Positions 14,695 to 53,929 of a stretch of 64,000 nucleotides of DNA are shown piece after piece (positions within the stretch are counted from its first letter, which is position 1; every line of letters starts with the position of its first letter). The stretch covers positions 687,564-751,563 of the forward strand of contig NZ_CP085324.1 in the NCBI RefSeq assembly GCF_020614395.1, in the 5' to 3' direction. Origin of the DNA: Salarchaeum japonicum (GTDB taxonomy: Archaea; Halobacteriota; Halobacteria; Halobacteriales; Halobacteriaceae). The notes beneath the pieces are model-generated. The model did no database searches. It had not been told where the DNA came from and saw nothing but the letters and a program-made list of their open reading frames with translations. A program made the translations under genes and the position numbers.

Positions 14695-14771
14695 ACCGAC
14701 CCTGTCGAACCACTATCCCATAACAGCTGTCCCGTGCACACCGAACGACTCCTCGAAAATCGGAGAACGCG

Positions 14772-14818
14772 CTATTCTTCCTGTGCGTCCACGACTGCGA
14801 CGCCCGCCAGGTTCACGA
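14772..14818. repeat. Duplicate of the malic enzyme 3' end
   Basis: A segment of about 45 bases (14774-14818) repeats the last codons of the malic enzyme gene (14892-14936) with about four differences. Translated on the minus strand, both copies give [13 protein letters not shown] and a stop (TAG here, TAA in the gene). The two copies are 118 bases apart and flank two T-tracts and a hairpin. It resembles an attachment-type or tandem-duplication scar. Confidence 0.85.
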
Positions 14819-14864
14819 CCACCTTTTTCCAGTTCGGGGTCGCCTCCGGCGACGCCCTCACTGC

Positions 14865-14889
14865 AAAAACCTGGTGGGAAAAACCGCGG
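14865..14889 (-). terminator. Poly-T terminator after the malic enzyme gene
   Basis: On the minus strand two runs of five T (14883-14879 and 14869-14865) follow the stop codon within 25 bases. Archaeal transcription commonly ends at T-rich tracts. A GC-rich triloop hairpin (14839-14853) follows. Confidence 0.5.
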
Positions 14890-17136
14890 TTACTCTTCCT
14901 GTGCGTCCACGACCGCGACACCCGCCAGGTTCACGATGTCCTTGACTTCGTCGCCGCGCTGGAGGACGTGGACGGGTTCGTCCATGCCGACGAGCATCGG
15001 GCCGATGGCGTCCGCGCCGCCGAGGCGCTGGAGGAGTTTGTACCCGATGTTTCCGGCTTCGAGGTTCGGGAAGATGAGGACGTTCGCGGCCTCGTCGAGG
15101 TCGGCGAAGTCGTACGTGCCGGAGAGGATGTCCTCGACGACGGCGGTGTCCGCCTGCATCTCGCCGTCCACCGGGAAGTCGATATCGGGGTTCTGGCGGA
15201 GGGACTTCGCGGCGTCACGCACCTTCCGCGTGCCCTCGGTGTCGACGCTGCCGAAGTTCGAGTAGGAGAGCATCGCGACGCGCGGGTCGACGTTGAAGCG
15301 GCGCGCGAGGTTCGCGGTGTGCTCCGCGACCTCCGCCAGCACCTCCTTCGAGGGGTCTTGGTTCACGGTGGTGTCCGCGGCGAACACGACGCGGTTCTTG
15401 AACGTCAGCATGTAGACGCCCGCGACGTAGTCCGCGTCCGGCGCGGTGCCGATGACCTGGAGCGGCGGCTTGAGCGCGCTCGGGTAGTGGTGGGTGAGGC
15501 CGGTGAGGAGCGCGTCCGCGTCGCCCTCCTCGACCATCACGCTCCCGAGGTAGTTTGAGTCCTTCGCGACGAGTTCGCCCGCCTCGCTCCGCGTCACGCC
15601 CTTGCGCTTGCGGAGTTCGTGGAGGCGGTCGGCGTACGCGTCGTGGTCGCCCTCGTCCGGGTCGACGATGTCGGGGTCGAAGTCCAATCCGAGGCCGCCG
15701 ACCGTCCCCTCGATGGTGCCGCGGTCGCCCAGGAGCACGGGCTCCGCGATGCCCTCCTCCTGGAGCTGGTAGGCCGCGCGAATCATCTTCTCGTTGTCGC
15801 CCTCCGCGAGCGCGACGCGCTTCGGGTCGCTCTTCGCCTTGTTCAATACGACGCGCATCATCTCCCGGCTCTTGCCGAGGCGGGCTTCGAGGCGTTCGCG
15901 GTACGCTTCGAGGTCGACGGACTGCCGGGCGACTCCGGTCTCCATCGCGGCGTCCGCGACCGCGGGCGCGACCTCGAACAGCACGCGGGGGTCGAGCGGC
16001 TTCGGGATGATGTACTCGGGGCCGAACTGCAGGGGCTGGTCGCCGTACGCCTTCACGACCGCGTCCGGCACGTCCTGGCGCGCGAGGTCGGCGAGCGCCT
16101 CCGCGGCCGCGACCTTCATGTCCTCGTTGATGTCCGTCGCGCGCACGTCGAGCGCGCCCCGGAAGATGAACGGGAACCCGAGGACGTTGTTCACCATGTT
16201 CGGGTAGTCCGAGCGCCCGGTCGCCATGATGACCGTGTCGTCGCGCGCGGACTTCGCGTCGTCGTACCCGATTTCGGGGTCGGGGTTCGCCATCGCGAAG
16301 ATGATGGGGTCGTCCGCCATCGACTGCACCATCTCCTCGCTCACGATGCCGCCGACGCTGAGGCCGACGAACACGTCCGCGCCCGCCATCGCGTCCGCGA
16401 GGTCGTCGGCGTCGGTCTCCCGCGCGAACTCCTGCTTGTACTCGTTCACGTCGTCGCGGTCGGGCGTGATGGGGCCGGAGGAGTCGCACATCGTGATGTT
16501 CTCCTTCTTCACGCCCAGAGAGACGTAGAACCGCGCGCTCGCGATGGCCGACGCGCCCGCGCCCGAGAACACGACCTCCACGTCTTCGAGGGCTTTCCCG
16601 GAGATGTCGGCGGCGTTCAGGAGCGCCGCGCCCGAGATGATGGCCGTCCCGTGCTGGTCGTCGTGGAACACCGGGATATCCATCTCCTCGCGCAATCTGT
16701 TCTCGATGACGAAGCACTCGGGGGCCTTGATGTCCTCCAGGTTGATGCCGCCGAACGTCGGCTCCATCGCGGAGACGGACGTGACGATGTCCTCCGCGTC
16801 CTCCTGGTCGAGTTCGATGTCGAACACGTCGATGTCAGCGAACCGCTTGAACAGCACGCCCTTCCCCTCCATCACGGGCTTCGACGCCTGCGCGCCGATG
16901 TCCCCGAGGCCGAGGACGGCCGACCCGTTCGACACGACGCCGACGAGGTTCCCCTTCGCCGTGTACTGGTAGGCGTCGTCGGGATTGGTCGCGATGCGCT
17001 CGCAGGGCGCGGCGACCCCGGGCGAGTACGCGAGCGACAGGTCGCGCTGCGTGTTCGTCGGTTTCGTCGTCGATATCTCCAGTTTCCCCGGCGGGTCTTC
17101 GCGGTGGTAGTCCAAGGCGTCCTCGTCGAGTCCCAT
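14890..17136 (-). CDS. maeB: NADP-dependent malic enzyme with C-terminal phosphotransacetylase-like domain
   Basis: Oxidative decarboxylation of malate to pyruvate, supplying pyruvate and NADPH for gluconeogenic growth. It has 748 residues in two parts. Residues 1-430 are malic enzyme, with [31 protein letters not shown] and the dinucleotide-binding [17 protein letters not shown]. From about residue 430 ([21 protein letters not shown]) to the end is a phosphate acetyltransferase-like domain without evident independent activity, used for regulation in bacterial MaeB. Length and architecture match MaeB. It stands alone on its strand; the upstream intergenic 115 bases are shared with the divergent ctaA gene. 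Confidence 0.94.
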
Positions 17137-47376: not shown

Positions 47377-47451
47377 GGGTCGGTGGTCTAGTTCGGTTAT
47401 GACGGCTCCTTCACACGGAGCAGGCCGGCGGTTCAAATCCGCCCCGACCCA
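47377..47451 (+). tRNA. tRNA-Val (CAC)
   Basis: 75 nucleotides fold into a full cloverleaf. The acceptor stem GGGTCGG (47377-47383) pairs with CCGACCC (47444-47450), with discriminator A. The anticodon stem GCTCC/GGAGC encloses TTCACAC, giving anticodon CAC, which reads GTG. The T arm contains GGTTCAAATCC. CCA is not encoded. A box-A-like TTAAGTTTT lies upstream at about 47346-47354. The 3' end is imperfectly repeated at 47552-47581. Confidence 0.95.
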
Positions 47452-50444: not shown

Positions 50445-50532
50445 GGTAGCGGGTACGCGGGCCGGGGAGAAGTGTGATGTGGTTTCGCTGGCGGGACAAC
50501 GCGCCTAAGTGTCGGCGCGACGCAGTCTCGGT

Positions 50533-51687
50533 ATGGACTCGCGGCTCTCCCGGGAGAACGCGCTCCTCCACCGCGTGTGCGACCGCCTCGTAGAGGCGTC
50601 CGACCGAACCGGCCTCGAAGACGGCGTCTGCGAGGCGGTCGCGGGCGTCGAGGGCGTGTCGTACGCGTGGCTCGGGACGCGGCGGATGACCGAGGCCGTC
50701 GAACCGCGGGCGGCCGCGCCGCCCGACGACGACTTCGAGCGCGCGCTGGAACCGACCGCCGGCGGGGACGACGGCCCGGTCGGGCGCGCGCTCGCCGACC
50801 GCGAACCCGTGGTCTCCGACGCGACCGCCCTCCCCGACGCCGAACGCCGTGACGCCGCGACCGCTCGCGGAACCGAACGCGTCGCGGCCGTCCCGCTCCT
50901 GTGGAGCGACGCGCTCTACGGCGTCCTCGTCGCGCACGCACCCCGGAAGGGCGCGTTCACGGGCGAGTTCGTGGGCGTGCTGGCCGAGGTCGGGACGCTC
51001 GTCGGCGCGGCGCTCGCCGCGTCGGAACGCCGCCGCCGCCTCCACGCGGGCCGCCTCGTCGAACTCGACCTCCGCGTCACCGACCGCGGGCGCTTCCCCT
51101 ACGACGCGACCCGCGACCTCGACTGTCGCGCGACGATGCTCGGGTACACGGACGACGACGGCGCGTTCACGGTGACGTTCGGCGTCACCGGGCCGGACGC
51201 GACCGCGGGGCGCGTCCGCGCCGCCACGGACGACGCGACCGTGACCGTCTCGGAACCCGCGTCCGGCGGCGTGGTCGCGGAGACCACGCGCTCCGCGGAC
51301 TCCGTGCTCGGCGCGCTCGCGGACGTGGGCGCGACACTCTCCGACGGCGCGGTGGAGAACGGCACCGCCCGAATCACGGTTCGCCTCGCGCCCGGCGCGA
51401 CCATCCCCGCGGTCATCGACCGCGTGGACGCCATCGCCGCCACCGTCTCCGTCGCGTCGAAACGCGAAATCGACCGCGGAGACGCCACCTACACGGGCGC
51501 GCTCGACGCGCTCACCGACCGCCAGCGAACCGTCCTCACCGCCGCCTACGAGAACGGCTACTTCGAGTGGCCGCGCGACGCGAGCGGCGACGACCTCGCC
51601 GCCGCCCTCGACATCGCGCCCGCGACCTTCCACCAGCACCTCCGCGCCGCCCACCGCAACCTCCTCGACGAACTCCTCGCCGACTGA
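50533..51687 (+). CDS. Bat-like transcriptional regulator: GAF domain plus bacterio-opsin-activator HTH
   Basis: A 384-residue regulator of the family that includes the bacteriorhodopsin activator Bat. Residues about 5-160 form a GAF-type sensor (ENALLHRVCDRLVEASDRTG, AVPLLWSDALYGVLVAHAP, EFVGVLAEVGTLVGAAL). About 165-320 is the beta-rich bacterio-opsin-activator-associated domain. The C-terminal HTH_10 is clear: ALTDRQRTVLTAAYENGYFE then LDIAPATFHQHLRAAHRNLL. No PAS domain and no opsin or carotenoid gene nearby, so its regulon is unknown. Start ATG at 50533. Confidence 0.88.
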   Translation: MDSRLSRENALLHRVCDRLVEASDRTGLEDGVCEAVAGVEGVSYAWLGTRRMTEAVEPRAAAPPDDDFERALEPTAGGDDGPVGRALADREPVVSDATALPDAERRDAATARGTERVAAVPLLWSDALYGVLVAHAPRKGAFTGEFVGVLAEVGTLVGAALAASERRRRLHAGRLVELDLRVTDRGRFPYDATRDLDCRATMLGYTDDDGAFTVTFGVTGPDATAGRVRAATDDATVTVSEPASGGVVAETTRSADSVLGALADVGATLSDGAVENGTARITVRLAPGATIPAVIDRVDAIAATVSVASKREIDRGDATYTGALDALTDRQRTVLTAAYENGYFEWPRDASGDDLAAALDIAPATFHQHLRAAHRNLLDELLAD

Positions 51688-51794: not shown

Positions 51795-51910
51795 CCACCC
51801 ACCGTGCGGTCGGGTGGGGATCTGCAACGGGTAAACGGTCGCCGGAGGCGACCGTTTAGGGTCCTCGAAAATCGGAGATTTTCGGGATCCAGAGAGACCT
51901 TCGGTCTCTC
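51795..51910. repeat. Array of four stem-loops between convergent genes
   Basis: Four adjacent inverted repeats fill the gap between the Bat-like gene and sucD. (1) 51795-51817: CCACCCACCG, two-base loop TG, CGGT-C-GGGTGG. (2) 51832-51858: a 12-base-pair stem with loop GGA. (3) 51864-51886: CGAAAATC, loop GGA, GATTTTCG, extended by two more pairs. (4) 51892-51910: GAGAGACC, loop TTC, GGTCTCTC. Spacers are 5-14 bases. It could be a bidirectional terminator or mRNA-stabilising 3' structure for both genes, a structured RNA, or a mobile palindromic element. Confidence 0.7.
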
Positions 51911-51920
51911 GACGAGTTGC

Positions 51921-52790
51921 TTAGAGGAAGTCCTCGATGTGGTCGACGACTTCCGCGGGAGTGTCGCCGACGGGGACGCCGGCGTCGTTGAGGGCGTCGA
52001 TTTTGGACTCCGCGGTGCCGGTGCCGGAGCCGGAGACGATTGCGCCGGCGTGACCCATGCGCTTGCCCGGGGGCGCGGTGCGGCCGGCGATGAAGCCGGC
52101 GACGGGCGTGTCCATGTTCTCGGCGATGTAGGCGGCGGCTTCCTCCTCGTCCTCGCCGCCGATTTCGCCGCACATCACGACGGCCTCGGTGTCGGGGTCG
52201 TTCTCGAACGCTTCGAGGGCGTCGATGAAGTCCGTGCCGATGATGGGGTCGCCGCCGATGCCGATGGCGGTGGTCTGGCCGATACCGCGGCTCGTGAGCG
52301 TGTCGACGACCTGGTAGGTGAGGGTGCCGGAGCGGGAGACGAGGCCGACGTTCCCGGACTCGAAGATGTTGCCGGGGAGGATGCCGAGCTTGCTCTCGCC
52401 GGGCGTGATGATACCGGGGCAGTTCGGGCCCTGGAGGCGGGTGTCGACCTCGCTCAGGCGCTTGTTCACTTTCGCCATGTCCTGCGTCGGGATGCCTTCC
52501 GTGATGGCGACGACGAGGTCGAGGCTCGTGTCGAGCGCCTCGAAGATGGCGTCCGCGGCGAACGCGGGCGGGACGAAGACGACGGACGCGTCGGCGTCCT
52601 CCTCCTCGACGGCTTCGTTGACCGTGTCGTAGACGGGGACGCCGGCGACTTCCTGCCCGCCCTTGCCGGGCGAGGTGCCGGCGACGACGTTCGTCCCGTA
52701 TTCGAGCATCTGTTCGGTGTGGAACTTGCCTTCGCCGCCCGTGATACCCTGTACCACGACGCGGGTGTCTTCGTCAACTAGGATACTCAT
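51921..52790 (-). CDS. sucD: Succinyl-CoA synthetase (ADP-forming) alpha subunit
   Basis: TCA-cycle ligase subunit that binds CoA and carries the phosphohistidine. It has 289 residues. The CoA-binding Rossmann domain includes [19 protein letters not shown] and [11 protein letters not shown]. The active-site His is in [21 protein letters not shown] shortened here to [14 protein letters not shown]. The C-terminus [10 protein letters not shown] is normal. Its start overlaps the end of sucC by four bases. The four-hairpin array begins ten bases after its stop. Confidence 0.96.
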
Positions 52791-53929
52791 TGGTCTTCCT
52801 CCGCGTATTCGACGGCGCGCTGCACTGCGCCTTCGAGGGTTTCTTCGACGGTGACGAGTTCGTCGTTCAGGATTTCGCGGCCCTCCGCGGCGTTCGTGCC
52901 GGCGAGCCGGACGACGACGCGCTTCGGAATCTCGTCGAACTGTTCGAGGGCTTCGTTGATACCCTTCGCGACTTCGTCACCGCGCGTGATACCACCGAAG
53001 ATGTTGAACACGACGGAATCGACGTTCTCGTCGCTGAACACCATGTCGAGGGCGTTCGCGACGCGTTCGGCTTTCGCGCCGCCGCCGATGTCGAGGAAGT
53101 TCGCGGGCTTCCCGCCGTAGTAGTCCACGAGGTCGAGCGTGGTCATGACGAGACCCGCGCCGTTCCCGATGATGCCGACGTTGCCGTCGAGGCGGACGTA
53201 GTCGAAGCCGTACTCGTTCGCCTTGGCTTCGAGTTCGTCCTCCGCGGCCTCGTCCTCCATCTCCGCGAGGTCGGGGTGGCGGAAGAGCGCGTCCTCGTCG
53301 ATGTTGAGGACGGCGTCCGCGGCGACGACTTCGTCGTCGCTCGTGACCATCAGCGGGTTGATTTCGGCGTCCGACGCGTCCTTGGATTCCCAGAGGTCGT
53401 AGAGGGTCGTCAGGACGCTCGCCACGTCGCGCGCGACGGCCTTGTCGACGCCGGCGTCGTAGACGACCTTCCGCGCCTGGTAGGGATGCATGCCGAACGC
53501 GGGGTCGATGTGTTCGCGGGCGATGGCGTCGGGGTCTTCCTCGGCGACCTCCTCGATGTTGACGCCGCCCTTCGTGGACACCATCGCGACGGGTTTGCCC
53601 TCGCCGCGGTCCATCGTCACACCGACGTAGAGTTCGTTCGTGAAGTCGACTGCTTCCTCGACGAGAACCTTCTCGACGGTGTAGCCCTTGAGGTCCATCC
53701 CGAGGATGTCCTCAGCCGCGTCGCGGGCTTCGTCACTGTCCTCGGCGAGCTTGATACCGCCGGCTTTCCCCCGGCCGCCGACGTGGACCTGCGCCTTCAC
53801 TGCGACAGGATACCCGAGTCGCTCCGCGATGGAGACGACGTCGTCGACGGTGGACGCGACCTCCGAGCCGGGCGTCGGGATGCCGGCGTCGGCGAACACG
53901 CCCTTCGCCTGATATTCGTGAAGCCTCAT
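52787..53929 (-). CDS. sucC: Succinyl-CoA synthetase (ADP-forming) beta subunit
   Basis: ATP-grasp subunit of the same enzyme, 380 residues. The start [20 protein letters not shown] is diagnostic. The nucleotide domain shows [20 protein letters not shown], and the C-terminal CoA-ligase domain shows [18 protein letters not shown] and [17 protein letters not shown]. First gene of sucCD. A leaderless or short-leader start is likely at the ATG at 53929. The divergent quinone oxidoreductase gene starts about 110 bases away. Confidence 0.97.

Follow-up and report, generated by a model that had tools for sequence, protein, structure and literature searches.

A hairpin array past sucD of Salarchaeum japonicum: an older hairpin combined with a unit of a dispersed two-palindrome family

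The window, i.e. the whole stretch of DNA analysed here, comprises 64,000 nucleotides of the Salarchaeum japonicum genome (G000, 2.34 Mb), whose family also includes genomes with matches to records of Halarchaeum, Halobacterium and Halospeciosus. A gap of 233 bp lies between the gene of a Bat-like regulator and the convergent sucD, and contains hairpins that sit 10-130 nt past the sucD stop codon. Gene borders are those of a simple codon-usage caller and not of an annotation. The features of the locus are the following:

50509-51687, plus strand: gene of the Bat-like regulator, convergent with sucD; its stop codon at 51685-51687
51795-51817: weak stem-loop, CCACCC/GGGTGG, 6 bp with an 11-nt loop
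51824-51828: left arm of an outer stem, GCAAC, pairing with GTTGC at 51916-51920
51832-51858: resident hairpin, perfect 12-bp stem, loop GGA on the plus strand
51862-51915: two-hairpin block, member of a dispersed two-palindrome family; model match at 51860-51916
51866-51884: block hairpin 1, perfect 8 bp, CGAAAATC-GGA-GATTTTCG
51892-51910: block hairpin 2, perfect 8 bp, GAGAGACC-TTC-GGTCTCTC
51916-51920: right arm of the outer stem, GTTGC, adjoining the sucD stop codon
51921-51923, minus strand: sucD stop codon
51921-52790, minus strand: sucD (succinyl-CoA synthetase alpha subunit), an open reading frame; haloarchaeal sucD is 82-93% identical (80 loci)
52787-53929, minus strand: sucC, overlapping the start of sucD and read from the sequence as one operon with it

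An earlier note on this DNA had described four inverted repeats side by side in the gap, and all four were located. The stem at 51795-51817 is weaker than the other three and is the least secure of them, with a mismatch (CCAACC) in the sister species. The second repeat has the perfect 12-bp stem and GGA loop ascribed to it. The third, given as 51864-51886, has the GGA loop and a perfect 8-bp core at 51866-51884, its outer pairs being one wobble and one C-G. Three of the hairpins have three-base loops (GGA, GGA and TTC), as had been seen. The GCAAC/GTTGC outer stem encloses all three perfect hairpins, and the linkers of the array are GGATCCA and AGGACCC. On each of the two strands the whole region folds better than every one of 200 shuffles that kept the dinucleotide composition, with z values of -4.5 and -5.0. 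Single hairpins with a stem of at least 8 bp are at chance level in the window (19 versus 18.9). Adjacent pairs, defined as two such hairpins with loops of 3-5 nt and a spacing of 2-9 nt, numbered 0 in 1.41 Mb of Markov-shuffled sequence versus 31 distinct pairs in 2.2 Mb of genuine sequence from haloarchaea, the latter partly picked for hairpins. The signal is the clustering of hairpins and not the single hairpin.

Archaeal transcript ends are mostly ascribed to T-tracts. Neither strand of the 233-bp gap has a T run longer than 4, which agrees with the lack of a long T-run noted earlier; the canonical archaeal T-tract terminator, with a T run of at least 5 past the stop codon, is thus absent at sucD. 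A search of the whole window with Rfam at gathering score gave a tRNA at 47377-47451 as the sole match.

From the same genus, one further genome was compared, that of the sister species (G001); it is collinear with S. japonicum at about 92% nucleotide identity. At its sucD 3' end only the 12-bp hairpin is kept, directly flanked by the GCAAC/GTTGC arms. Both species therefore carry a 12-bp hairpin with a three-base loop inside this stem, and the loop is inverted between them, GGA here and TCC in the sister, the exact reverse complement. The 54-nt block at 51862-51915 is missing from the sister sucD and the rest of the junction is clean: the sister reads TTTAGGG|GTTGC where S. japonicum reads TTTAGGG[54 nt]GTTGC, with no target duplication, a difference that could be a gain here or a loss in the sister. 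In the sister, TTTTTT stands about 92 nt past the sucD stop codon and is preceded by a GGACT-TTCG-AGTCC stem; S. japonicum is without both. The array is a composite of an older 12-bp hairpin, shared with the sister, and a two-hairpin unit of 54 nt.

The block was found a second time in a family-wide search. A copy of 61 nt, 95% identical, lies in the sister genome (G001 C2:1901229-1901289), adjoining the 3' end of a gene called gdhA on the strength of its translated C-terminal part as read by eye. This copy is part of a six-hairpin array with regular 7-nt linkers (L262, about 10.2 kb). The linkers GGATCCA and AGGACCC and the flanks are common to the window block and the sister copy, and the last hairpin of the latter has a compensated change, GCGAGACC...GGTCTCGC, in which an A-T pair of the window has become C-G. 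The two block hairpins again stand beside a 12-bp hairpin there, with the linker aggaccc. The 3' end of gdhA in S. japonicum (L260, about 13.7 kb) carries not the block but an element of another kind, T5-palindrome-A5, described below. In these two species the block is thus at sucD in S. japonicum only, and the near-identical copy at gdhA in the sister only. A damaged relic of the block is present at gdhA of G021, which belongs to another genus, and similar two-hairpin units occur in Halobacterium, in Halospeciosus and in a second family of the order. In an independent case, a two-hairpin insertion of 60 nt at a single locus is present in Halobacterium G016 and absent from G012. Within the window, a lone TCCTCGAAAATCGGAGA at 14750-14766, just before the duplicated end of a malic-enzyme gene, corresponds to one half, 17 nt long (51862-51878), of the sucD hairpin. 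Dispersed multi-hairpin repeats with identical stems and inverted loops (GAA/TTC) were also observed in the Halobacterium-like G012 (L303-L313).

For a covariance model, R3, 11 units were taken, all from genera other than that of S. japonicum. The model gave the window block, matched at 51860-51916, a score of 55.4 bits (E=1.8e-14), and the gdhA block of the sister 57.0 bits. In the alignment of R3, 99.5% of the stem cells are paired, and changes on both sides of a pair number 20 versus 5.5 in shuffled alignments (0/500); with the window copy added, there are 21 double-change cells versus 5.7 in shuffles. R3 has matches in 70 of 79 Halobacteriales genomes, and a related model, R2, has 2-74 in every one of the 26 family genomes, numbers that overstate the copies, since a palindromic copy can match on both strands. 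The two hairpins next to the 12-bp one are thus a single unit of 54 nt, of a family dispersed through the Halobacteriales. Sets of equal-scoring copies are present within single genomes (six in G035, seven and four in G012, and others in G015 and G041), which speaks for recent dispersal. It is well supported that a dispersed two-palindrome element has been joined to an older hairpin.

The array is rarely found beside sucD elsewhere. It is missing from the other genera of the family except Halospeciosus, and from nearly all of the 80 other sucD loci. The earlier note had counted absence beside sucD in related genomes against the array; such absence was found in nearly all genomes, and is ascribed here to turnover of the element rather than to the array being unreal. 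At sucD of Halospeciosus flavus (L051, 3866-4200) at least nine hairpins stand in a row, and include three matches of the two-hairpin model R3, the best with 55.0 bits.

A palindromic mobile repeat was among the candidates first proposed. For the hairpins at 51866-51884 and 51892-51910 this reading is well supported by the dispersed copies; the other two stem-loops are not covered by it. These two of the four stem-loops are well supported as a dispersed palindromic element resembling the PATEs and SMRs of Haloquadratum, and one that is probably mobile. No match to a Y1-type transposase (PF01797) was found in the S. japonicum genome and one was found in the sister; TnpB gave one weak match only in S. 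japonicum. Membership in the REP/RAYT class was rejected, as the Y1 (IS200-like) transposase was not found in the S. japonicum genome. The ends of Y1 elements (L246-L249) have no obvious likeness to the block when compared by eye. Strong two-hairpin matches are present at 3 of 30 TnpB loci and absent from the other 27. At one of them (L338, G003:C1) the unit lies in frame inside tnpB, which it lengthens by about 19 residues with no stop codon introduced, and at another (L352) it overlaps the last codons of tnpB; a solo copy in H. salinarum (L314) encodes the same peptide end, RDDETPSASRTT, as the tnpB of L352.

The explanation we favour, and consider fairly probable, is a composite 3'-end structure, in which a dispersed unit moved as a PATE/SMR-like element and then took a 3'-end role. 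The unit would move without a transposase of its own, probably in the form of single-stranded DNA that carries the hairpins and is handled by IS200/IS605-type enzymes, and would tolerate the 3' ends of genes as landing places. Its presence at sucD would be due to arrival in S. japonicum rather than to loss in the sister. Deletion of the block from the sister sucD, i.e. the loss of an older array, would also fit the 12-bp neighbour with linker aggaccc at gdhA of the sister and the relic at gdhA of G021. The hairpins would then be transcribed in the 3' UTR of sucCD and may act as a partial terminator and as a barrier to 3'-exonucleases, and the array possibly replaces the T6 terminator that is present in the sister at about +92 past the stop codon and missing here.

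In Haloferax volcanii the median 3' UTR is 97 nt, and in a reporter a T5C tract gave 95% and a hairpin 59% termination (PMC7237163). From these values, the T-less array at sucD could form transcript ends or block exonucleases, and a terminator or stabiliser role for sucCD is plausible from its position. A rival reading takes the entire array as an old bidirectional terminator, purpose-built for the convergent sucCD/Bat-like pair, whose hairpins would be kept by their function and of which the sister would have lost two. Hairpins with three-base loops and stems of at least 8 bp are enriched in convergent gaps, with 1.15 per kb versus 0.063 per kb in genes, as counted in a contiguous, unbiased sample of 424 kb of S. 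japonicum. Other family genera had the same trend, and little of it was seen in 78 other haloarchaeal sucD neighbourhoods; the further density samples were 280 kb of the sister and 90-100 kb from each of four other genera, and a 458-kb sample chosen partly around hairpin hits was kept out of the rates. The position of the hairpins directly past stop codons and the row of at least nine past sucD of Halospeciosus flavus agree with a terminator of this kind, as do clusters of hairpins without U-tracts that have been proposed as bacterial terminators (PMC8355165). Such an origin is nevertheless unlikely: an array at sucD is missing from the other genera of the family bar Halospeciosus and from nearly all of the 80 loci, a near-identical copy of the block stands at an unrelated gene in the sister, and the copies dispersed through the order are not tied to sucD.

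The loops of the hairpins bear on a different origin, in which template switching during replication, on short inverted seeds, would build hairpins in place by converting the flanks into perfect stems with three-base loops, and could invert these loops, with no transposition at all. Loops of the type GNA/TNC are found in 37 of 63 intergenic versus 9 of 85 coding hairpins, and 56 of the 63 intergenic hairpins have a C-G closing pair. Stems remain perfect while loops are inverted or multiply changed: among orthologous hairpins with kept arms in the two sister species, the loop differs in 4 of 8 intergenic and 2 of 17 coding cases, and in those four GGA has become TCC, TCT, GCC or TTC. The half-hairpin at 14750-14766 would be a product of the same process. 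Against it, the linkers and flanks are common to the gdhA copy, and the model spans both hairpins and the linker; since foldback alone copies no linkers to a new locus, we regard template switching as an improbable source of the block. The d(C-GNA-G) motif is an unusually stable DNA mini-hairpin, and the GNA loops with C-G closing pairs hint at formation or recognition of the hairpins as DNA. That the unit is the 3' part of a TnpB omega-RNA-like scaffold, kept as a solo structured RNA, would agree with the covarying stems, the overlap with the tnpB 3' end at L352 and the peptide end shared by L314, but is very improbable with 27 of 30 TnpB loci lacking a strong match and a tRNA as the sole Rfam match of the window.

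The core of the 12-bp hairpin had been reported to recur in the gap past the malic-enzyme gene. At 14839-14853, GTCGCC-nnn-GGCGAC does recur exactly, and it is there the apical hairpin, of the type GGTCGCC-nnn-GGCGACC with a three-base loop, of the following element:

14815-14882, plus strand: T5-palindrome-A5 element, 73.8 bits, E=1.6e-15 (model R1)

The element is built as CCA-CC-TTTTT-[palindrome]-AAAAA-CC-TGG-TGGG-AAAAA. The suggestion that the core belongs to a family of elements is right, and the link between the malic-enzyme gap and sucD is at the level of the apical hairpin only. The sucD array and the element share the GTCGCC hairpin with its three-base loop and a position past stop codons; the array differs in having neither the T5/A5 tracts nor a box of the CCTGGAGGG type. 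As a member of the T5-palindrome-A5 family the sucD array was rejected, with an R1 score of 10.2 bits (E=3.8).

A total of 45 such elements were collected. In 43 of them a triplet ahead of T5 can pair with the box past A5, versus 22.1 with shuffled boxes (0/5000), and the types include CCA/TGG, GGA/TCC, GCA/TGC, GAA/TTC, GTA/TAC and CGA/TCG, among others. RNAalifold, unprompted, gave the same outer pairs, with 12, 8 and 4 double changes. R1 has 46 matches in S. japonicum and 38 in the sister, and matches in 25 of 26 family genomes and all 7 genera; the genome matching H. salinarum DSM 3754 has none. Of the 21 cases that were mapped, 14 have a T tract starting 4-10 nt past a stop codon, and a further four have their A side 4-12 nt from a convergent stop. 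The exact 19-mer AAAAACCTGGAGGGAAAAA is present in 10 of 243 genomes of the order, and its reversed control in 0. The element has no match in Rfam. The T5/A5 box has no match in IMG/VR or PLSDB, and a viral or plasmid origin of the box was rejected on this ground. The malic-enzyme element is flanked by a 42-nt direct repeat of the gene end (14777-14818 and 14895-14936, about 40/42 identical); similar duplicated gene ends flank T5-palindrome-A5 elements in G025 (L168 and L178), and in G006 one such element lies past the apparent 3' end of a tRNA gene (L207, about 1437). T tracts are offered on either strand, for which a bidirectional terminator is the natural reading, and by its sequence the element looks like a putative one. 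It covaries strongly and appears to be an undescribed element of gene 3' ends, and may be a more original object than the sucD array, which is mostly of a known kind and of moderate novelty.

At one gene end, that of gdhA, a T5-palindrome-A5 cassette and a two-hairpin unit are swapped between the sister species. A tentative extension, for which we claim only a modest chance, is that gene 3' ends in the Halobacteriaceae are modular, with T5-palindrome-A5 cassettes, some 40 in each genome, and mobile two-hairpin units interchanging as bidirectional end signals. If this is true, palindromes that transpose would be exchangeable signals for ending transcription from both sides. The T-less hairpins past a core operon, with a T-tract in the sister, are a natural test of the takeover of 3'-end formation by palindromes, and the family models allow such palindromes to be followed through the whole order.

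Small inversions at palindromes are described from chloroplasts, e.g. in the trnH-psbA spacer (PMC2903610). The inverted loop at sucD is similar in that the inversion is tied to a palindrome among close relatives, and different in that it concerns a loop of three bases in the 3' region of an archaeal gene instead of a chloroplast spacer. The hairpin terminator S12 of Haloferax volcanii (PMC7237163) is a single hairpin in a coding region, whereas the sucD array is T-less and known from sequence. The PATEs of Haloquadratum walsbyi are IS605-related, with terminal-only forms of 52 bp, are defined as lacking terminal inverted repeats, and cause no target duplication (PMC3119063). The block resembles them in being very short and non-coding, with near-terminal palindromes (4 and 5 nt from its ends), too small to code, and without target duplication; as in PATEs, copies of its family are heterogeneous, in some cases located at tnpB and possibly strain-specific in presence. 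The ends of the window block, TCCTCGA and TCGTCGA, agree in 6 of 7 positions, and some family members end GTCGTTCG...CGAACGAC. The family differs from PATEs in that these consensus ends are inverted in some copies, that its link to IS605 ends comes from few loci, that it is order-wide, and that it is found behind a core metabolic operon. The SMRs of Haloquadratum are about 80-110 bp long, with prominent inverted ends and more than 95% identity within a type (PMC3119063). The block is like SMRs in being short, without target duplication and with no known transposase, and unlike them in its length of 54-60 nt and its divergence. Because of the inverted ends of some copies and the thin tie to IS605 ends, the block is named PATE/SMR-like rather than filed as a PATE.
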